NCBI GenBank assembly: GCA_030018935.1
Contig: JASEGZ010000010.1
Coordinates: 1-44,932, forward strand
Reading direction: 5' to 3'
DNA from: Syntrophales bacterium
GTDB lineage: Bacteria > Desulfobacterota > Syntrophia > Syntrophales > CG2-30-49-12
Length of the DNA stretch: 44,932 bases
Shown: piece by piece, positions 96-38,974 of the stretch
How the letters are laid out: every line of letters begins with the position of its first letter
Position numbering within the stretch: the first letter of the stretch is position 1
Notes under the pieces: model-generated
Databases searched by the model: none
Seen by the model: only the letters and a program-made list of their open reading frames with translations
Told to the model about the DNA's origin: nothing
Translations under genes and position numbers: made by a program

Positions 96-1970
96 TTAAC
101 TTTTCCCTGCCTCTTCAACCTCTTCCAGCAACTTCCGAAAGACTGATATGGCCTTCATCTCACGCTCTCCAAGGCGGTAAATAAATCCTTCAAGGTATTC
201 TTTAGTCTCTGGGGGAGACAGGCCGATCCTTTTTCCATGCAGGCAACCGATAGAATCGAGTTCATCCTCTGCCCTCTCGAGGGATTTTTGCAGCGCCTGT
301 TGCAGTTCCAGCTTTTTAGCGGCCGGTAGAGATTTTTTCTGCGCCCACACGGCAAAGACAAAGGGGAGTTTTTGCCAATCGTGCCATTCCCTGGCAAGGT
401 CGTACACGAGTTCAAACCCGGGAAGACCGTATTTTTTACGTTTTAATGCCTCATCACCGATGAGCAGCACCGCGGCAAACGCATGGTAATCATTGACCCC
501 GAGATGCATGCGTATGAAGTTCGCTCTCAACCCGTATTTTTTCTCGAGGAGGACATGGAGCAGTTTTACCGACGTCGCCGTTTCGTCCGTGATGCCGATG
601 TTTTTCTCCGCGAGGCCGGCCCAGTCTTCCCTCGCAAAGAGCATGATACTCTTAATCTGATCACGTCCGGCAATGCAGCAGCTCATCGTCTCAAGACTGT
701 CTTCCTGGGCGAGATAATCCATCAGCGAGAAGGGGGCGGCATCAATCTGTCCCTTCCTCGACAAGGCTCCCATCTGCCGCGGTGTAACCGGTAAAATTTT
801 GAATTCTCCCTTCTCAAAATATTCGTAGAAGGGGACGGAATTAAGGTAGGGAATCTTCCCGATGACATCTTCGGCATAGATGTTCAGTGGGTTATAATAG
901 GCATCGCGTTCCACCGGTATCTTTCGGGCATCTTTGATGATCCTGATGATCCGCTCTTTTGCCAGCGCTGTCGGGCTTGTTGCCCCGGCATCGTGTGCGA
1001 TTCTCTCCCCTCCCACGGTTCCATCCATGTCATCAGCCCCGAAGTTCAGGGCCACGGAGGCGATCTCCTCCGTCAGCATGACCCAGTACGCCTTGATATG
1101 GGGAAAGTTATCCAGCATCAGGCGTGAAACGGCGATTGTTTTTAAGTCGTCAATGGCGGAGGAGAAACCGCTTTGGGGTCTAATCCCCGTACTGCCGGCC
1201 TGGAAGGCAAGGGGGATAAACGCAAAAAAACCGCCCGTTTCATCCTGTGCCTCCCGGAGCTTGATCATGTGAATCAGCCGTTCTTCGTATGTCTCGAGAT
1301 GGCCGTAAAGGAGCGTTGCATTCGTGGGGATGCCAAGCCGGTGTGCGGTTTTGTGCACCTCGAGCCAGGTCTCCGCGCCGATCTTCTGAGGAAAGAGTAG
1401 TTTGCGGATACGTTCCGAAAAGACCTCCGCCCCACCCCCCGGCATTGTGTCCAGTCCTGCCTCCTTCAACTGGAGAAGGATCTCTGCGAGGGGAAGTTTG
1501 AATTTCCTGCGGAAGAAATCGGCTTCCACGGCGGTGAAGGCCTTGATGTTGATGTTCGAGAAGTTCTTCCTGATCGCGGAGATCATCTGGAGGTAGTGCT
1601 GCCACTCCCAATCCGGGTGGAGGGCGCCGGTGATGTGTACTTCTTGGACATGGGGTGTCAGCCTGCCCAGGATATCCTCGATGGTCATCTCGTAAGCGCC
1701 GGGCCTGCCCCGCTTGGCGGCAAAGGCGCAAAACCTGCAGGAGAGTACACAGATGTTTGTTGGTTCGATCTTCTGGTTGAGGGCGAAGTAGGCGGCGTCT
1801 CCACTCTTCTGTTGCTGAGCGGCATGCGCCATCTTACCGAGGGAGATGATGTCGCCTGTACGGAACATCACCAGACCGTCTTGCAGGGAAAGTCTCTCGC
1901 CCTTCTGAAACTTCTCCCATGCGGGAATGAGTTGTTGGTCACGAAAATTGATGTCCATCTTCCGCCGCAT
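96..1970 (-). CDS. mqnE/mqnA: Fused aminofutalosine synthase-chorismate dehydratase (MqnE-MqnA)
   Basis: Two menaquinone enzymes in one chain of about 624 residues. The N-terminal part (to about residue 365) is a radical-SAM protein with the cluster motif CVLSCRFC (Cys 74, 78, 81) and the PGGGAEVFSERIR segment typical of MqnE/MqnC. The C-terminal part begins at IGKIPYLNSVPFYEYF, which is how MqnA proteins start, and covers a whole MqnA. By family knowledge MqnA dehydrates chorismate to 3-enolpyruvylbenzoate and MqnE joins that product to SAM, so the fused domains catalyse consecutive steps. I chose the ATG at 1970 because AGAAGGA lies just upstream; an in-frame start at 2003 would leave almost no room for a promoter between this gene and the divergent mqnP. 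The stop codon lies in a degenerate AAAAGTT repeat. Cytoplasmic. The family calls are firm; the fusion itself is unusual. Confidence 0.93.
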   Translation of the reverse strand: MRRKMDINFRDQQLIPAWEKFQKGERLSLQDGLVMFRTGDIISLGKMAHAAQQQKSGDAAYFALNQKIEPTNICVLSCRFCAFAAKRGRPGAYEMTIEDILGRLTPHVQEVHITGALHPDWEWQHYLQMISAIRKNFSNINIKAFTAVEADFFRRKFKLPLAEILLQLKEAGLDTMPGGGAEVFSERIRKLLFPQKIGAETWLEVHKTAHRLGIPTNATLLYGHLETYEERLIHMIKLREAQDETGGFFAFIPLAFQAGSTGIRPQSGFSSAIDDLKTIAVSRLMLDNFPHIKAYWVMLTEEIASVALNFGADDMDGTVGGERIAHDAGATSPTALAKERIIRIIKDARKIPVERDAYYNPLNIYAEDVIGKIPYLNSVPFYEYFEKGEFKILPVTPRQMGALSRKGQIDAAPFSLMDYLAQEDSLETMSCCIAGRDQIKSIMLFAREDWAGLAEKNIGITDETATSVKLLHVLLEKKYGLRANFIRMHLGVNDYHAFAAVLLIGDEALKRKKYGLPGFELVYDLAREWHDWQKLPFVFAVWAQKKSLPAAKKLELQQALQKSLERAEDELDSIGCLHGKRIGLSPPETKEYLEGFIYRLGEREMKAISVFRKLLEEVEEAGKS

Positions 1971-2067
1971 TTTATCCTTCTCTAAAATATTGTCAATAAG
2001 CAATCCCTGAGTGATGCCGTCTTGTTATTTCTTAATTTTTGTGTTAAAAAATCCAGCAGGCAGAGAA

Positions 2068-2997
2068 ATGGGACTCATAACAGAGGAGGAGATGATAAGA
2101 AAAGCCCTGTTTGCAGAAGAGATTTTCAGATGGTATTCCAGGGTTGTCACCTACGGGCGGATGATTAAATTTTCCCATACCGTCTTTGCCCTGCCCTTTG
2201 CTCTCGCTGCTCTCCTTCTGGCGCACAGAGAGCATCCTATTACCTCCCGTCTCGTCTTTTTGGTTATTGTGGCGATGGTAGGAGCCAGATCCGCCGCCAT
2301 GGGGTTCAACCGTTTTGCCGATGCAAAGGACGATGCGGAAAATCCGCGGACCGCGGAAAGGGAGATTCCCGCCGGCCGTATTTCTCTCCGGGAAACGGCG
2401 ATCTTCATCACAGGTTCAAGTATCCTTTTTATCCTTGCGGCAGCGGCCATCTCTGAAATCTGCTTCTGGTTTTCCTTCCCCGTTTTGCTTGCCCTCTTCG
2501 GTTATTCCTACACGAAGAGGTTTACCTGGTTATCACACATTGTCCTGGGATTGGTCCAGGGGTTGGTACCCATAGCGGTCTGGGTTGCCGTAACGGGAAC
2601 ATTTTCTGCCAAGATATTGGCCCTGTCCCTGACCCTTTGCACCTACATCGCCGGGTTCGATATTCTCTACGCCTGCCAGGATATGGAGTTTGACCGCCGG
2701 CAGAGGCTCTACTCCATGCCGGCAAGGTTCGGCCTGGCGAGAGCCATGCGTTTTTCCTCGCTCCTCCATTTGATCGCCTTCCTGTCACTTTTATCTCTCT
2801 GGCGGATCTTTGCCCTCAGCCCCTATTATCTCACCTTTGTCTCTGTCATCGGTATTCTTCTGATCGTAGAGCACAGACTTGTCAAACCGGATGATCTCTC
2901 AAGAGTCAACATCGCCTTTTATCACGTAAACAGCGTCATTTCTCTCCTCTTATTTGCCGCTTTGCTGACCGAGGAGATGGTGGGGAGGATGTTTTGA
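2068..2997 (+). CDS. mqnP: MqnP-type UbiA prenyltransferase
   Basis: Integral-membrane UbiA-family prenyltransferase that attaches the polyprenyl chain to the naphthoate precursor of menaquinone. The first Asp-rich motif is NRFADAKDDAENPRT, followed by AEREIPAGRIS, and the second is DMEFDRRQRLYSMPARFG; both bind prenyl-diphosphate/Mg2+ in this family. About eight hydrophobic helices are visible. The segment MIKFSHTVFALPFAL is the usual MqnP N-terminal helix. The start is uncertain: the frame is open from an ATG at 2011, but conserved sequence only begins later, and starts at 2068 or 2092 leave space for a divergent promoter. It overlaps ubiX by four bases, so the two are probably translationally coupled. 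The neighbouring UbiX, UbiD and MqnE-MqnA genes assign it to the futalosine pathway rather than to ubiquinone synthesis. Confidence 0.88.
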   Translation: MGLITEEEMIRKALFAEEIFRWYSRVVTYGRMIKFSHTVFALPFALAALLLAHREHPITSRLVFLVIVAMVGARSAAMGFNRFADAKDDAENPRTAEREIPAGRISLRETAIFITGSSILFILAAAAISEICFWFSFPVLLALFGYSYTKRFTWLSHIVLGLVQGLVPIAVWVAVTGTFSAKILALSLTLCTYIAGFDILYACQDMEFDRRQRLYSMPARFGLARAMRFSSLLHLIAFLSLLSLWRIFALSPYYLTFVSVIGILLIVEHRLVKPDDLSRVNIAFYHVNSVISLLLFAALLTEEMVGRMF

Positions 2998-3599
2998 AAA
3001 AACGGATTATTGTGGGGACAACCGGCGCTTCCGGTACCGTTTATGCGGTGAGGCTTCTCGAGATCCTGCTGACGATGCCTCTTGAGATCCATCTCATCGT
3101 ATCCGCCATGGGTTGGGATATCATGCGTTATGAGCAGGACTGGCATGATGAAACTCTGGATGACTTCATCGCCCGGAAACTGAGACCCAAAACAGCGGCA
3201 GGCGATTTAATCCTGCACCCCATCGGCGATATGTTCGCCCCACCAGCCAGTGGTTCCTTTCAGTCCTCCGGGATGGTGGTCGTTCCCTGTTCCATGAGGA
3301 CTCTTTCTACTATTGCCGCAGGCCACGCCGGCAATCTGATCGAAAGGGCCGCCGACGTTACCCTGAAGGAGAGGCGTCCCCTCGTCCTGGTTCCCAGGGA
3401 GACCCCGGTAAGCCTGATCCATCTGCGAAATATGGTCGCGGCAACGGAGGCCGGCGCCGTGATCATGCCGGCGAGTCCTCCCTTTTATCACCGGCCGCAA
3501 GGAATCGCCGATCTGGTGAACTTTATGGTGGGGAGGATACTCGATCACCTTCATCTGGAACACCACCTGATCCCGAGGTGGGGGGAGAGACATGCCTGA
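2994..3599 (+). CDS. ubiX: UbiX-family flavin prenyltransferase
   Basis: Makes prenylated FMN, the cofactor of UbiD decarboxylases, from reduced FMN and dimethylallyl phosphate. The 201-residue protein has the N-terminal flavin-binding GTTGASG loop (residues 8-14), the central VVPCSMRTLSTIAAG segment and the C-terminal FYHRPQGIADLVNFMVGRIL region of the family. Length is normal. The start is TTG inside the mqnP stop, preceded by GGGGAGGA; the first residues MKKRIIVGTTGASG match the family N-terminus, so this rare start is well supported. The stop overlaps the ATG of the UbiD gene by eight bases. In menaquinone clusters this partner is sometimes called MqnM. Cytoplasmic. Confidence 0.93.
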   Translation: MKKRIIVGTTGASGTVYAVRLLEILLTMPLEIHLIVSAMGWDIMRYEQDWHDETLDDFIARKLRPKTAAGDLILHPIGDMFAPPASGSFQSSGMVVVPCSMRTLSTIAAGHAGNLIERAADVTLKERRPLVLVPRETPVSLIHLRNMVAATEAGAVIMPASPPFYHRPQGIADLVNFMVGRILDHLHLEHHLIPRWGERHA

Positions 3600-5484
3600 G
3601 AAGAAGAATTACAGGAATCTGACTGACTTCGTTCGGGTCCTCGAAGCGGAGGGAGAACTGGTGAGGATCAAGGCCCCCGTCTCTTCTTTCCTTGAGATCA
3701 CCGAGATAACGGACAGGGTCTCCAAGGGCCCATCCGGCGGCAAGGCGTTGCTCTTTGAGCAAGTGGACGGTTCTTCCTTTCCCGTGATTACCAATGCCTT
3801 TGGCAGTGCAAAGAGGATTGCCCTCGCCTTGGGGGTGAGGAATCTGGACGATCTGGAGAGAAGGGTAAAGGAGATACTGGAACAGGCCCCGCCGAAGACC
3901 TTGAGGGAGAAACTCCAGTTCCTGACCAGGGTCCTGAGCTGGGGGTGGTACCTCCCCAAGGTTGTCAGGATGGCCCATCCCCCCTGTCAGGAGGTTGTTT
4001 TGAGGGGTGATCAGGTTGGCCTGAGCAAATTGCCGGTCCTCCATTGCTGGCCCGGTGACGGCGGTCCTTTTATCACCCTACCCGTTGTATTCACTAAAAG
4101 TCTCACCACCGGAAAGAGAAATGCCGGTATGTACCGTCTTCAGGTCTTTGATAAGAATACTACGGGGATGCACTGGCATATCCACAAGGACGGTTCGCAT
4201 TATTTTAATGAGTACCGCAGAGCCGGTAAAAGGATGGAAGTGGCGGTAGCCATCGGCACAGATCCCGCCGTTACCTATGCGGCAACCGCTCCCCTGCCCC
4301 GTGGTATTGACGAGATGATCCTGGCCGGATTCATCCGGGGCAAACCGGTGGAGATGGTAAAGGGGATCACCGTGGATATGGAGGTTCCTGCGGAGGCGGA
4401 GATTGTCCTCGAAGGTTACATCGTCCCGGAGGAGAGGAGACTGGAAGGACCATTCGGTGATCACACGGGGTACTACTCCCTCCAGGATGATTATCCTGTC
4501 TTTCATGTAACCGCCATAACCCACCGGAAAAATGCCGTTTACAGCGCCACGGTCGTTGGCCGGCCCCCGATGGAAGACTGCTATCTGGCAAAGGCAACAG
4601 AAAGGCTCTTTCTTCCCCTGCTGCAGGCCACCATGCCGGAAATCGCGGATTATGTCATGCCCTGGGAAGGTGTTTTTCACAATATTACCATTGTTGCCCT
4701 TGATAAGGAATATCCCGGCCATCCGAGGAAGGCGATCCACGGCCTTTGGGGAGCCGGCCAGATGAGTTTCTGTAAGATGATCGTCGTGGTGGATGGCGCT
4801 GCCGACCTTCGCGATCTCAAGGGGCTTTTTACAAAGATTCTCGATACAGTTGACTTAAAGAGCGATCTTGTCATCACCGAGGGGATACTGGACGTTCTCG
4901 ATCACGCGGCGCCTAATCCCCTCTTTGGAGGAAAGATAGGGATTGACGCCACGGAGAGGATCAGGGGAGAGGTTCCCAGGGAGACCGGAAGTCTGCATCG
5001 TGATGGTGTGGAATTGCCGGCGGCAGGGGAAATCCTCAGAGAACTCAAGGCGCTGGATGAAGGCTTTCTCTCCTGCCGGATGCCGTTTACCTCTGTAGTG
5101 CATCCACTTATCCTTTTACAGGTGGATAAGGGGCTTGGGAAAAGGGGGCGCTTTTTTACGAAATTGCTTTTCCTTGCGAAGACAATACCACCGCAAAGTA
5201 TCGCTGTCCTTTACGATGCAGATATTGATCTCTCTGATAATTCTCTCCTGTTATGGAAAGGATTCAATAATGTGGATCCCCTGAGGGATATTGTCGTCAG
5301 GGGTAACCAGGCGGTTATTGATGCCACGCGAAAGGGACGGGAGGATGGTCATCCACGGCCCTGGCCGGATGATGTTGTGATGAGTCAGGAGGTCAAGGAA
5401 AGGGTTACGACAAGGAGAGAGGAACTGGGGATCTCCCATCTCCTTACTTTAGTTATCCTTCTAATCAGCTTTCAGCTTTTTTAA
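3592..5484 (+). CDS. ubiD: UbiD-family decarboxylase, menaquinone type (MqnL-like)
   Basis: Prenyl-FMN-dependent decarboxylase of 630 residues, probably removing the carboxylate of the prenylated naphthoate in the futalosine pathway. The UbiD core is clear: GMYRLQVFDKNTTGMHWHIHKDG (cofactor/metal region), the catalytic Glu-Arg-Glu region around AEAEIVLEGYIVPEERR, EGPFGDHTGYY, and VGRPPMEDCYLAKATERLFL. It is longer than E. coli UbiD, as menaquinone-type members often are. The extreme C-terminus, ISHLLTLVILLISFQLF, does not look like family sequence. It is encoded by an AATCAGC/TTTCAGC repeat and a T-rich run, so the natural end may have been replaced by a repeat. Co-transcription with mqnP and ubiX is very likely. 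Confidence 0.92.
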   Translation: MPEKKNYRNLTDFVRVLEAEGELVRIKAPVSSFLEITEITDRVSKGPSGGKALLFEQVDGSSFPVITNAFGSAKRIALALGVRNLDDLERRVKEILEQAPPKTLREKLQFLTRVLSWGWYLPKVVRMAHPPCQEVVLRGDQVGLSKLPVLHCWPGDGGPFITLPVVFTKSLTTGKRNAGMYRLQVFDKNTTGMHWHIHKDGSHYFNEYRRAGKRMEVAVAIGTDPAVTYAATAPLPRGIDEMILAGFIRGKPVEMVKGITVDMEVPAEAEIVLEGYIVPEERRLEGPFGDHTGYYSLQDDYPVFHVTAITHRKNAVYSATVVGRPPMEDCYLAKATERLFLPLLQATMPEIADYVMPWEGVFHNITIVALDKEYPGHPRKAIHGLWGAGQMSFCKMIVVVDGAADLRDLKGLFTKILDTVDLKSDLVITEGILDVLDHAAPNPLFGGKIGIDATERIRGEVPRETGSLHRDGVELPAAGEILRELKALDEGFLSCRMPFTSVVHPLILLQVDKGLGKRGRFFTKLLFLAKTIPPQSIAVLYDADIDLSDNSLLLWKGFNNVDPLRDIVVRGNQAVIDATRKGREDGHPRPWPDDVVMSQEVKERVTTRREELGISHLLTLVILLISFQLF

Positions 5485-12354: not shown

Positions 12355-13476
12355 CTACGTGCTGCTGAAAGGAATTGCGGTTAAAAATGCCGTTTCGGAT
12401 CTGGGAAACACCTCTATAATTTCATACAGTGTTGACCTCTGGGCAGCATCAAAGCCTGCATCGTGTATCATCTGTATGCACTCTTTTGTGTCCGTCCTGT
12501 TTATAAAATCTGCCGCCGCATGGACATTCTCTTCCAACAATGTCCCGCCGAAATCATCGGCCCCGAAATGGAGGGCGATCTGTCCCGTCTTTTTGCCTTC
12601 TGAAAACCACGAGGCCTGTATATGGGGGAAGTTGTCCAGATAGATCCTTGAAAAGGCGATTATCTGCAGGTAGCGGGTCACAGTTACCTGCTGAGTAATG
12701 GTTTTCGCAAGGGGCGTGTTCCCCGGCTTGAAACTCCAGGGGATAAAGGCGGTAAAGCCATAATACTCATCCTGCAACTGCCGGATACTTTCCAGATGAC
12801 TCAGGATATCTTCATCTATCTCCAGATGCCCGTACATCATCGTGGCCGTTGATTTATAGCCGATCCTGTGCGCTTCACGCATCACCTGAAGCCAATCCGC
12901 CGATATTCCTTTCTTTTTGCTGATTTTTTCCTTTACCCTGTCGGATAAAACCTCAGCTCCACCACCGGGGATGGTCCGCATACCGGCATCCCAGAGTTTT
13001 TCTAATACCTCCGGAATCGAAAGACCGGAGATACGGCTCATGCCGATGATCTCCGGGGGTGAATAGAAGTGGGGATGGACCTCAGGAACTTCGGCAATTG
13101 TCCTTTTTACCATTTCCAGGTAGTAGTCAAAGGTGATGGCAGGATTTACCCCACCCTGCAACAGGATTGTGGTGGCTCTCCTCGCCGCCGCATCTTTGAA
13201 ATGCTGAATCATCTGATCAACCGTATAGGTATAGGCGCCCTCTTCACCCGGATGACGGTGGAATGCACAGAAGACACAATTGTTCTCACAGATGTTTGTA
13301 TAGTTTGGATTTGAGTCCACCACAAACGTTACCTGCGGTTCGGGATTCTTCTCGAAACGGATTTCGTTTGCCGTCTCTGCAAGGTCGAGTAAGTCCGCAC
13401 GGCTGAGAAGGAGCAGACCTTCTTCCCGAGAGATCCTTTCCCTATTACGAGTTTTCACATAGATTGCCGCTAACAT
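12355..13476 (-). CDS. mqnC: Cyclic dehypoxanthinyl futalosine synthase (MqnC)
   Basis: Radical-SAM enzyme of 373 residues that cyclises dehypoxanthine futalosine in menaquinone synthesis. The cluster motif is CENNCVFC (Cys63, 67, 70) after DSNPNYTNI. PGGGAEVLSDRVK, ATMMYGHLE, GFTAFIPWSFKPGNT and HFGADDFGGTLLEENV are all typical of MqnC. Length is normal and it resembles the MqnE half of the fused protein at the window start but lacks an MqnA domain. It is separated from the other mqn genes and is convergent with the Hmc-like remnant operon. The heptamer array lies directly upstream, between it and gltX. Its promoter is not evident. Confidence 0.93.
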   Translation of the reverse strand: MLAAIYVKTRNRERISREEGLLLLSRADLLDLAETANEIRFEKNPEPQVTFVVDSNPNYTNICENNCVFCAFHRHPGEEGAYTYTVDQMIQHFKDAAARRATTILLQGGVNPAITFDYYLEMVKRTIAEVPEVHPHFYSPPEIIGMSRISGLSIPEVLEKLWDAGMRTIPGGGAEVLSDRVKEKISKKKGISADWLQVMREAHRIGYKSTATMMYGHLEIDEDILSHLESIRQLQDEYYGFTAFIPWSFKPGNTPLAKTITQQVTVTRYLQIIAFSRIYLDNFPHIQASWFSEGKKTGQIALHFGADDFGGTLLEENVHAAADFINRTDTKECIQMIHDAGFDAAQRSTLYEIIEVFPRSETAFLTAIPFSST

Positions 13477-36772: not shown

Positions 36773-36967
36773 GTGTGTGAAGCAAATGCTTATCTGAACA
36801 CGGAAGAAGGAAAGGAAGAGCTTCTTATGGAGGGGGTAAATATACTTCGGCCCGACAAGGATGGAGTCTATCTACAGAGTATCTTTGGGGAGCAGAAGTT
36901 AGTGAAGGCTCACATCAATTCTACAATGAGCGCTTACGATTTGAGAATGAAAAAGAGGAGGTTTAAG
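36773..36967 (+). CDS. CooT-like nickel-binding protein, open into the receptor gene
   Basis: From a GTG after GGAGGAGG, the frame reads MCEANAYLNTEEGKEELLME, then GVNILRPDKDGVYLQSIFGE and QKLVKAHI. This is the complete pattern of CooT-family proteins (about 65 residues), in which Cys2 binds nickel. CooT in Rhodospirillum supports CO dehydrogenase nickel insertion. No stop codon follows. The frame continues through NSTMSAYDLRMKKRRFK into the TonB-receptor start at codon 66. Either the stop was lost and a fusion is made, or internal initiation yields the receptor while CooT is translated with a tail. Listed only to the receptor start. Confidence 0.72.
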
Positions 36968-38974
36968 ATGAGGTCTTTGAAGTTGGTTTTTGTTTTAGTA
37001 GCGATTATGGGTCTTTTTTTCTCCCAGGTGAGTTGGGCGGAGGAGAAAGGGGTCAACAAACTGGAGGAGATTGTGGTGACAGCCACAAAATACGAGACTC
37101 CGATAAAGGATATACCTGGTTCGGTTACAGTCATTACCTCAGAAGAGATAAAAAACCAGCATCTGCCCAACGGTGATATAGGGGATGTTTTACGTTCGAT
37201 TCCAGGTATTACCCTCCGCCGCGCATATGCTCCTTTTCCCGCCTATCCCAATATCCGCGGGGTGGGTAGCGACCTGACGGTCATTCTGGTCAACGGTATC
37301 CCCACTAACTGGGAAATCACTCAGGCTATACCGCCGGAGAATATTGAACGAATCGAAATTGTTCGCGGACCCGCCTCTGCCCTTTACGGGGCCAATGCCA
37401 GCGGCGGGGTAATAAATATAATAACCAAAGAGGGCAAGAAGGAGTTTAAGAGCACCTTCAGCGGGGGATACGGCACCTTCGATACCTATCGTCTTAGCGC
37501 TACTGCAAGTGGAGGTTTAGACAAGTTATATTACTCCCTTGCAGTTGCACAAGAAGAATCGGACGGAGAGAACATAGTAACCAATAATGTCGTTCCCGGC
37601 ATAACGATGGTCGAAAAATGCAGATATGATAAAAAGAGTGTTTCCCTCAATACAAACTATAGATTCAATGGCAGTTCCAGGTTGTCGTTTCTCTATAACT
37701 TCTTCAATGATGACTATACCAGAGGCCGTCCCAATGTGGGAGGTGACTGGGACCGGCACTTTGCCAGTCTCATCTATGACCAGAAGCTGGGCGAGAGCTT
37801 TGCCTTCAAAGGTTCATTGGGATACCGTTATGATGACCTCTTGCACCGCTATGATTACGGAGGAACCAAGTATGCCGAAAGGCAAAGACGCTATACCGAT
37901 TATGATGAAACCCCCTTAGAATTACAGCTCACCGGTGACATTGGTTTGAGAAATACCCTGACTGCCGGTTTCTTTTATAATAAACAGACGACCGACCAGG
38001 ATTTTATCAGTTCTACTACCGGCGCTTCCACACAGCAAAATAGGTACAAGATAAGGACTATTGCGGGCTATCTGCAGGATGTGTGGAAACCGACAGAGTC
38101 ATCGATCGTCACAGCAGGAGTTCGATATGACAAATGGAAGAACTATGACAATACCTTTACCACCTTTAAGACTAGAAACCCTGAGGACAGTTCCCATGAT
38201 AATTGGAGCCCCAAGGTCGGGTTAAGGTATAACTTTACAGCGCAGACTTCTATCTGGACAAACTACGGTATGGGCTACATGCCTCCCACTCCTGAACAAC
38301 TGTATGATGATCGAACGTCCGGGGGGAATCCGAGGCAGCCTAACCCGGATCTCAAGCCTGAGAAGACCCATTCCTGGGAGCTTGGTATGGAGAAATGGTT
38401 TGGCGAATCCGTACAGGCCAGGCTCGTTGGTTTTTACAATTACACCGATGACAAGATACTCTCATGGTTTAGTGCGGATAACGTCTGGATGAATAAGAAT
38501 ATTGGGCGTACGCAGTCTTATGGAACTGAATTTGAGATTGCATTACATCCTCTTGAGCACTTGCTGGTGACGGCAAACTATACCTGGAATAAGGCCAAGA
38601 TCGATGAAAACCCTTCCAAACCGGCACAGGAAGGCAACTGGCTGCCCTTTAGCCCGAAGCATAAGGCTAATCTGGGTGTAACTTATGCTATGGAAAATAA
38701 TTTTACCGTCAGCGGGTTTGCACGTTATCTGAGCCTTCAGCATACCAATGATGATAATAAAAAATATACCGCTGCAGGAGAAGAGATGTTTATGGACAGT
38801 TCATTTGTAGTAGATTTAAAAGCCGTAAAGCATTTGCCTGTTAGATGGGGTTGTCTGAGAAATATCGATCTTTCATTGAGCGTGGATAACGTATTCGATG
38901 AGAAATATAGAACCTTCTATGTGTACGAGGACCCGGGCAGGGTATTCTTCGGAGAGGTGAAGTTTACTTTCTAA
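36968..38974 (+). CDS. TonB-dependent outer-membrane receptor
   Basis: A 668-residue receptor. A signal peptide (about residues 1-24, ending SQVSWA) is followed by the TonB box EEIVVTA (33-39). A plug domain holds SVTVITSEEIK, LRSIPGITLRR, ERIEIVRGPASALYGANASG and GVINIITKEG. The barrel ends in FFGEVKFTF with the terminal Phe needed for assembly. The chosen ATG follows AGGAGG by six bases and matches the start of the second receptor at 44204; the frame upstream encodes a CooT-like domain. With NikR, TonB-ExbBD and an ABC importer nearby, a nickel chelate is the likely cargo. Iron or cobalamin receptors share this architecture, so the cargo is inferred from context. Confidence 0.92.
   Translation: MRSLKLVFVLVAIMGLFFSQVSWAEEKGVNKLEEIVVTATKYETPIKDIPGSVTVITSEEIKNQHLPNGDIGDVLRSIPGITLRRAYAPFPAYPNIRGVGSDLTVILVNGIPTNWEITQAIPPENIERIEIVRGPASALYGANASGGVINIITKEGKKEFKSTFSGGYGTFDTYRLSATASGGLDKLYYSLAVAQEESDGENIVTNNVVPGITMVEKCRYDKKSVSLNTNYRFNGSSRLSFLYNFFNDDYTRGRPNVGGDWDRHFASLIYDQKLGESFAFKGSLGYRYDDLLHRYDYGGTKYAERQRRYTDYDETPLELQLTGDIGLRNTLTAGFFYNKQTTDQDFISSTTGASTQQNRYKIRTIAGYLQDVWKPTESSIVTAGVRYDKWKNYDNTFTTFKTRNPEDSSHDNWSPKVGLRYNFTAQTSIWTNYGMGYMPPTPEQLYDDRTSGGNPRQPNPDLKPEKTHSWELGMEKWFGESVQARLVGFYNYTDDKILSWFSADNVWMNKNIGRTQSYGTEFEIALHPLEHLLVTANYTWNKAKIDENPSKPAQEGNWLPFSPKHKANLGVTYAMENNFTVSGFARYLSLQHTNDDNKKYTAAGEEMFMDSSFVVDLKAVKHLPVRWGCLRNIDLSLSVDNVFDEKYRTFYVYEDPGRVFFGEVKFTF

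Follow-up and report, generated by a model that had tools for sequence, protein, structure and literature searches.

The minus-strand gene at positions 96 to 1970 very probably encodes a bifunctional MqnEA protein, in which MqnE and MqnA are joined in one chain. The fusion would have originated once, by loss of a stop codon in or near Ignavibacteria, and mqnEA would have been gained by the present lineage horizontally, together with mqnC and probably mqnD. Coordinates refer to the window, that is, the whole stretch of DNA analysed (44,932 nt; GCA_030018935.1 contig JASEGZ010000010.1, positions 1 to 44,932).

As proposed here, the single protein would catalyse steps one and two of the futalosine route to menaquinone. 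MqnA converts chorismate to 3-[(1-carboxyvinyl)oxy]benzoate, and this is the reaction assigned to the C-terminal part. The N-terminal MqnE part would combine a 5'-deoxyadenosyl radical, derived from SAM, with 3-[(1-carboxyvinyl)oxy]benzoate to give aminofutalosine. PMC5352715 describes MqnE as adding the 5'-deoxyadenosyl radical to the enol ether of its substrate. The joined chain could feed the product to the neighbouring site, or would at least provide both enzymes in equal amounts and close to each other.

The gene lies in a single open frame (99-2003, minus strand; stop codon at 96-98), which comprises 635 residues when counted from the first TTG. Below, residues are numbered from the ATG at 1970, except for profile matches, which follow the 635-residue reading. 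The features of the gene are as follows:

96..1970, minus strand: mqnEA, the MqnE-MqnA fusion with its stop codon; 624 aa from the ATG at 1970 or 620 aa from the ATG at 1958
891..1970, minus strand: MqnE part, residues 1-360, predicted aminofutalosine synthase (radical SAM), from the TIGR03700 profile and the structure match to 6xi9
1728..1751, minus strand: CxxxCxxC motif, Cys74/Cys78/Cys81
876..890, minus strand: junction, about residues 361-365, where the MqnE and MqnA matches abut
99..875, minus strand: MqnA part, residues 366-624, predicted chorismate dehydratase, from PF02621 and the structure match to Streptomyces coelicolor MqnA
840..842, minus strand: Asn377 (Asn to Ser in chain 7an7); N in 41 of 41 fused rows
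648..650, minus strand: Ser441 (Ser to Ala in chain 7an8); S in 41 of 41 fused rows
195..197, minus strand: Tyr592 (Tyr to Phe in chain 7an9); Y in 38 of 41 fused rows and F in 3

AGAAGG stands five bases ahead of the ATG at 1970, from which the protein would have 624 residues. G001, a genome of the same genus, lacks the counterpart of this ATG and carries a stop codon immediately before the next ATG, so that its protein starts at the equivalent of 1958 (620 residues). The ATG at 1958 is the only one of the two ATG starts common to both genes, and G001 was consequently dropped as backing for a start at 1970. Since G001 begins at the 1958 equivalent, the TTG at 2003 is an unlikely start. Both ATG codons are better starts than the TTG, and either 1970 or 1958 may be the true one.

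In line with the original prediction, a complete MqnE is followed in the same frame by a complete MqnA with almost no linker. The TIGR03700 equivalog of MqnE matched residues 30-372 with 455.4 bits (cut-off 434.55) and scored above the MqnC and CofH models, and Radical_SAM and CofH_C domains are present in the N-terminal part. The narrower MqnE equivalog NF006276 remained below its cut-off (350.9 bits vs. 560). The best solved-structure match of this half by sequence was the aminodeoxyfutalosine synthase MqnE of Pedobacter heparinus (E 1e-80). Cys74, Cys78 and Cys81, the expected iron-sulfur cluster ligands in this family, are retained in all 41 fused rows.

The C-terminal half matched PF02621 over residues 381-628 with 160.2 bits (gathering score 26); this family takes in MqnD as well as MqnA. 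A sequence search at E 0.001 retrieved MqnA chains and no MqnD chains for this half, with E values of 2e-17 to 7e-15 for the MqnA proteins. We further built an AlphaFold2 model, for which only the alignment of 41 fused sequences was employed (mean pLDDT 86.3, pTM 0.87). Residues 3-368 of the model aligned to MqnE 6xi9 with Z 39.1, and the alignment to S. coelicolor MqnA gave Z 31-32, the tightest rows spanning residues 365/366-620. Because the MqnE and MqnA structure matches meet, there is practically no linker. Alignments of the model also placed the C-terminal half nearer to MqnA chains (Z 29.6-31.9) than to the MqnD structure 2czl (Z 23.5). The three residues of this half given in the list were deduced by aligning the S. 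coelicolor MqnA chains 7an7, 7an8 and 7an9 against 7ahr, three of the variant chains, which also include 7an6 and 7ywc. Both halves had been noted to keep their key motifs and to look functional, and the invariance of the three cysteines, Asn377 and Ser441 across the fused rows agrees with this.

The own genome (2.07 Mb, 96.3% complete) contained one MqnE above cut-off and two PF02621 proteins, namely the fusion and a protein on contig C22. The latter matched 2czl (MqnD) at E 5e-54 and AF1704 at E 6e-70, and was assigned to MqnD. Neither a separate mqnA nor a second mqnE was found in this genome, where the other radical SAM match is MqnC; the single MqnE and the single MqnA detected are both in the fusion. 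Of 25 fusion-bearing genomes, 17 have a third PF02621 protein. Twelve of these 17 proteins (L184-L195) were examined: they are MqnA-like by profile, and in 12 of 12 the Asn is replaced by Tyr, His, Phe, Pro or Met and the Ser of the Thr-Ser pair by Glu or Asp. The absence of the Asn makes it doubtful that they serve as a spare MqnA, and they may be MqnA paralogues that have no catalytic role or act differently.

To describe the distribution of the fusion, several samples were compared. Among 60 relatives, the own genome included, 10 gave any match and 50 gave none. The full fusion was present in the own genome, in G001 (86% identity) and in G011 (65%), whose contig recurs as locus L040, and was thus limited to the genus of the window and one other genome of its order. 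In five genomes (G013, G018, G042, G051 and G054), mqnE, mqnA and mqnC are adjacent separate genes, and partial matches were obtained in G034 (separate genes, cut by the contig end) and G055. In a sample of 395 genomes of the phylum, MqnE was above cut-off in 191; this sample contains the own genome, whose match stands outside the matches listed. Among the matches listed, seven MqnE frames exceeded 600 aa and none of the seven is an MqnE-MqnA fusion, four being MqnE-MqnC fusions and three having no second Mqn domain. A widespread occurrence of the fusion in the phylum was thus not found among these matches.

A scan of a genome collection with peptides of the window protein, in which the best 80 loci were kept and relatives of that protein are therefore favoured, returned 34 loci among the 80 in which one frame encodes MqnE and the whole or a piece of MqnA. 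Locus L101, which combines PF02621 with CofH_C, was left out of the 34. The 34 loci were mostly titled Ignavibacteria or Bacteroidota, with one KSB1 locus and the order relative L040. In a sample of 294 genomes from the class of the L030 genome (titled Ignavibacteria), MqnE was above cut-off in 88, and in 67 of the 88 it lies in a frame of at least 585 aa, long enough for the fusion. Thirty loci of this sample were opened, revealing 21 intact fusions, 1 broken fusion and 8 unfused loci. The other 46 long frames were counted by length, and some belong to the same genomes as scan loci; one has 898 aa, the length of the broken L052 frame. In a plasmid collection, among the matches listed (20 of 81), either the genes are separate or only the MqnE-like part is covered. 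The home of the MqnE-MqnA fusion is Ignavibacteria. Hence, the expectation that the same domain order would recur in Desulfobacterota was not confirmed, as the fusion is rare near the window and common in Ignavibacteria, while its presence in genus and order relatives means that it is not confined to a single genome.

Several other explanations for the gene were weighed. The assembly consists of 90 contigs and mqnEA sits at a contig end, which would suit an assembly or sequencing error that removed the stop codon between two genes. However, G001, G011 and dozens of other assemblies share the architecture and the conserved junction; chance and assembly error are therefore very unlikely, and we give the error next to no weight. 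A degenerate MqnA half, with MqnA activity supplied by another gene, might be suspected from its low identity in structure alignments to the MqnA proteins of S. coelicolor (about 21-22%) and Deinococcus radiodurans (27%). Against this, all three residues altered in the readable MqnA variants are kept in mqnEA, no second MqnA was found in the own genome, and the extra MqnA-like proteins of fusion genomes lack the Asn in each of the 12 examined, whereas it is present in 56 of 56 other MqnA rows, fused and unfused. We regard degeneration as highly improbable.

A stronger claim than bifunctionality is that MqnEA is a channelling enzyme, in which the MqnA product would reach the MqnE site without leaving the protein. 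MqnA and MqnE catalyse consecutive steps, the linker is nearly absent, and fusion-length frames occur in 67 of 88 MqnE-bearing genomes, albeit in one class sample. In the 41 fused rows, the junction carries no insert in 33, which share an identical length, although 3 residues are inserted in 7 rows and 15 residues in 1. The joint, short and conserved, is compatible with domains held in a fixed arrangement, and so is the high pTM (0.87), which suggests a defined orientation of the two domains; yet this value derives from an alignment that holds fused proteins only, and co-expression alone would preserve the fusion too. Taken together, channelling appears rather unlikely. Unlikely, too, is the broader scenario in which a channelling MqnEA of single origin commits chorismate to menaquinone, and mqnEA and mqnC, with or without mqnD, form a transferable front half that crosses phyla and joins a native UbiD tail.

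Returning to the bifunctional MqnEA of single origin, its descent was addressed by phylogenetic analyses. In the MqnE tree (111 rows), a single branch set 31 of 31 fused rows apart from the others (SH-aLRT 96); the same was observed for 31 of 31 fused rows in the MqnA tree (57 rows; 99/95), and in the joined MqnE and MqnA tree the fused rows were together with 100/100. As the fused rows group together in all three trees, one fusion event, and hence a single origin, is likely according to the sequences compared. The fused clade was most closely approached by 12 rows, among them Chloroflexota, Latescibacterota and Acidobacteriota. The counterpart of the first residue of the MqnA part is found at most 34 nt before or after the mqnE stop in 11 of these rows, and in the twelfth (L067) mqnA is 259 nt away. 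Across 93 unfused MqnE loci, with one genome represented twice, mqnA is directly downstream in 24, including 11 of these 12 rows; many of the other unfused loci carry only about 1.5 kb of flank, so that their mqnA could lie beyond it. We suggest that the ancestral mqnE stood next to mqnA in an mqnE-mqnA-mqnC operon and lost its stop codon, and that this event took place in or near Ignavibacteria. An mqnEAC operon is named in PMC4746308.

Repeats of the same genome, broken or contig-end loci (L052, L055, L057, L058 and L061) and near-copies (L069, L070, L072, L075, L076, L106 and L108) were dropped from the trees. The MqnE and MqnA trees were built without L147-L152, L154-L195 and rows below the set thresholds of length and score. 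L001, L004 and L005 correspond to the window, and L008 and L040 are one genome. L196-L225 are absent from the trees, and some of them are in the alignment A1.

The lineage of the window (window, L007 and L040; 100/97) was nested inside the fused clade. Its neighbour was the Ignavibacteriales row L044 in the joined tree (83/86) and the L031-L036 group in the MqnA tree (98/94), and in the MqnE tree its position inside the fused clade was not fixed. A grouping of the other 28 fused rows without this lineage was rejected (AU p 0.0175, or 0.033 without the KSB1 row), these p-values being moderate and the tested group having been picked after the tree was seen. The MqnC tree (98 rows, 93 of them different because of five identical pairs, with some repeats of order genomes kept) showed a similar nesting, again with L044 next. 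The MqnD of the own genome shares 56-79% identity with that of 23 other genomes with the fusion and 29-45% with that of five order relatives with separate genes. An MqnD tree, built without the unfused order relatives, did not resolve the transfer question. For UbiD, in turn, identities of 55-67% were found in 10 order genomes outside the genus (7 over most of the length and 3 over residues 6-460), in contrast with about 34-39% for UbiD proteins near Ignavibacteria mqnEA (47% over one 72-residue piece). Since mqnEA and mqnC are nested, MqnD resembles that of fusion genomes and UbiD resembles that of the own order, the front half of the pathway would probably be acquired and the UbiD tail native. 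Horizontal transfer would have brought mqnEA and mqnC, and probably mqnD, into the lineage of the window. The G+C content is 53.7% for mqnEA, 53.4% for UbiD, 49.4% for mqnC and 47.8% for the window, and says little about a transfer.

The reverse course, with vertical inheritance of the fusion in the order of the window and passage from there to Ignavibacteria, draws on the fact that families f1 and f11 of the order both have fused genes. It is at odds with the nesting in the MqnA, joined and MqnC trees, with the AU result given above and with the 50 of 60 relatives that gave no match, and we consider it improbable; because the unfused order relatives sit on long branches, what vertical descent should look like is itself uncertain. 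Acquisition by the lineage of the window is thus the reading we retain.

The window contains further genes of the pathway:

12355..13476, minus strand: mqnC, apparently from the same source as mqnEA according to the tree (TIGR03699, 448.4 vs. 428.1)
2011..2997, plus strand: UbiA-family prenyltransferase (PF01040), MqnP candidate, divergent from mqnEA, with a likely start at about 2092
2994..3599, plus strand: UbiX-family flavin prenyltransferase
3592..5484, plus strand: UbiD-family menaquinone decarboxylase (TIGR03701, 655.1 vs. 495.9)

The UbiA-family protein scored above the cut-off of the general model TIGR01475 and below those of all three MqnP models. In the UbiD frame, the last 16 residues (5434-5484, plus strand) are hydrophobic and lie beyond the match to G001, which spans residues 1-614 of 630 though the G001 frame has 634 aa; this gene end may be wrong or freshly diverged. 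No MqnB was found in the own genome, and the sole PF01048 protein found there (contig C6:65821-66408, L110) is MTAP-like and below its equivalog cut-off, so that there is no clear enzyme for the next step. This MTAP-like protein is a candidate for aminofutalosine cleavage, which an MTA-type enzyme could perform; in PMC6302742, a promiscuous enzyme is said to accommodate such steps.

Fusions with a different partner were also detected in the phylum of the window:

L141:1081-3267: MqnE-MqnC fusion
L142:1404-3656, minus strand: MqnE-MqnC fusion
L145:870-4109: MqnE-MqnC fusion
L146:1084-4305: MqnE-MqnC fusion

These were scattered on the MqnE tree, where well-supported branches force at least two changes of label. 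Other unusual frames were noted as well. L101:2168-3931 holds a PF02621 domain followed by CofH_C in one 588-residue frame adjoining a separate MqnE. L052:5956-8649 joins MqnE, part of MqnA and MqnC in one 898-residue frame, with another MqnA piece in a different frame, and probably reflects sequencing errors. At 36773-38974 of the window (plus strand), a CooT-like domain (residues 1-50) is followed by a TonB-dependent receptor in one frame; this oddity may reflect an accidental join or a misplaced start.

Searches of the open-access literature brought up no account of an MqnE-MqnA fusion. Protein databases presumably label such sequences automatically as "multifunctional fusion protein", and the mqnEA sequences themselves are probably not new to them. 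Both enzymes and the pathway are already known, and the fusion is their joining in one chain. MqnEA offers a ready-made test of why the first two futalosine steps are kept together and, as one natural gene, a front end for aminofutalosine production. In genome surveys, a pipeline that expects one gene per step may take the fused protein for a single step and report an incomplete pathway. Further, the mosaic composition of the pathway suggests that parts of menaquinone synthesis can be exchanged separately between phyla.

In comparison with known systems, the MqnE of P. heparinus (6xi9/6xig) has the same fold and the CxxxCxxC motif, with 36-38% identity over the entire enzyme, and the solved protein stops where the MqnA part starts in mqnEA. 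Similarly, the MqnA half shares its fold with S. coelicolor SCO4506 (7ahr/2nxo), which also has the Asn, Ser and Tyr that are altered in the variant chains, and with D. radiodurans MqnA (2i6e) and 6o9a. All these MqnA structures are of stand-alone proteins, whereas in mqnEA the MqnA is attached behind MqnE; such single-enzyme structures fit the earlier statement that MqnE and MqnA are individual proteins in the organisms in which the pathway was elucidated. The unfused mqnE-mqnA-mqnC rows of Chloroflexota, Acidobacteriota and others encode the same enzymes in the same order as mqnEA and mqnC, but as separate genes in which mqnA starts close to the mqnE stop. Finally, the MqnE-MqnC fusions are likewise pathway fusions with MqnE first; their partner, however, is MqnC, the other radical SAM enzyme, in contrast with the MqnA of mqnEA.
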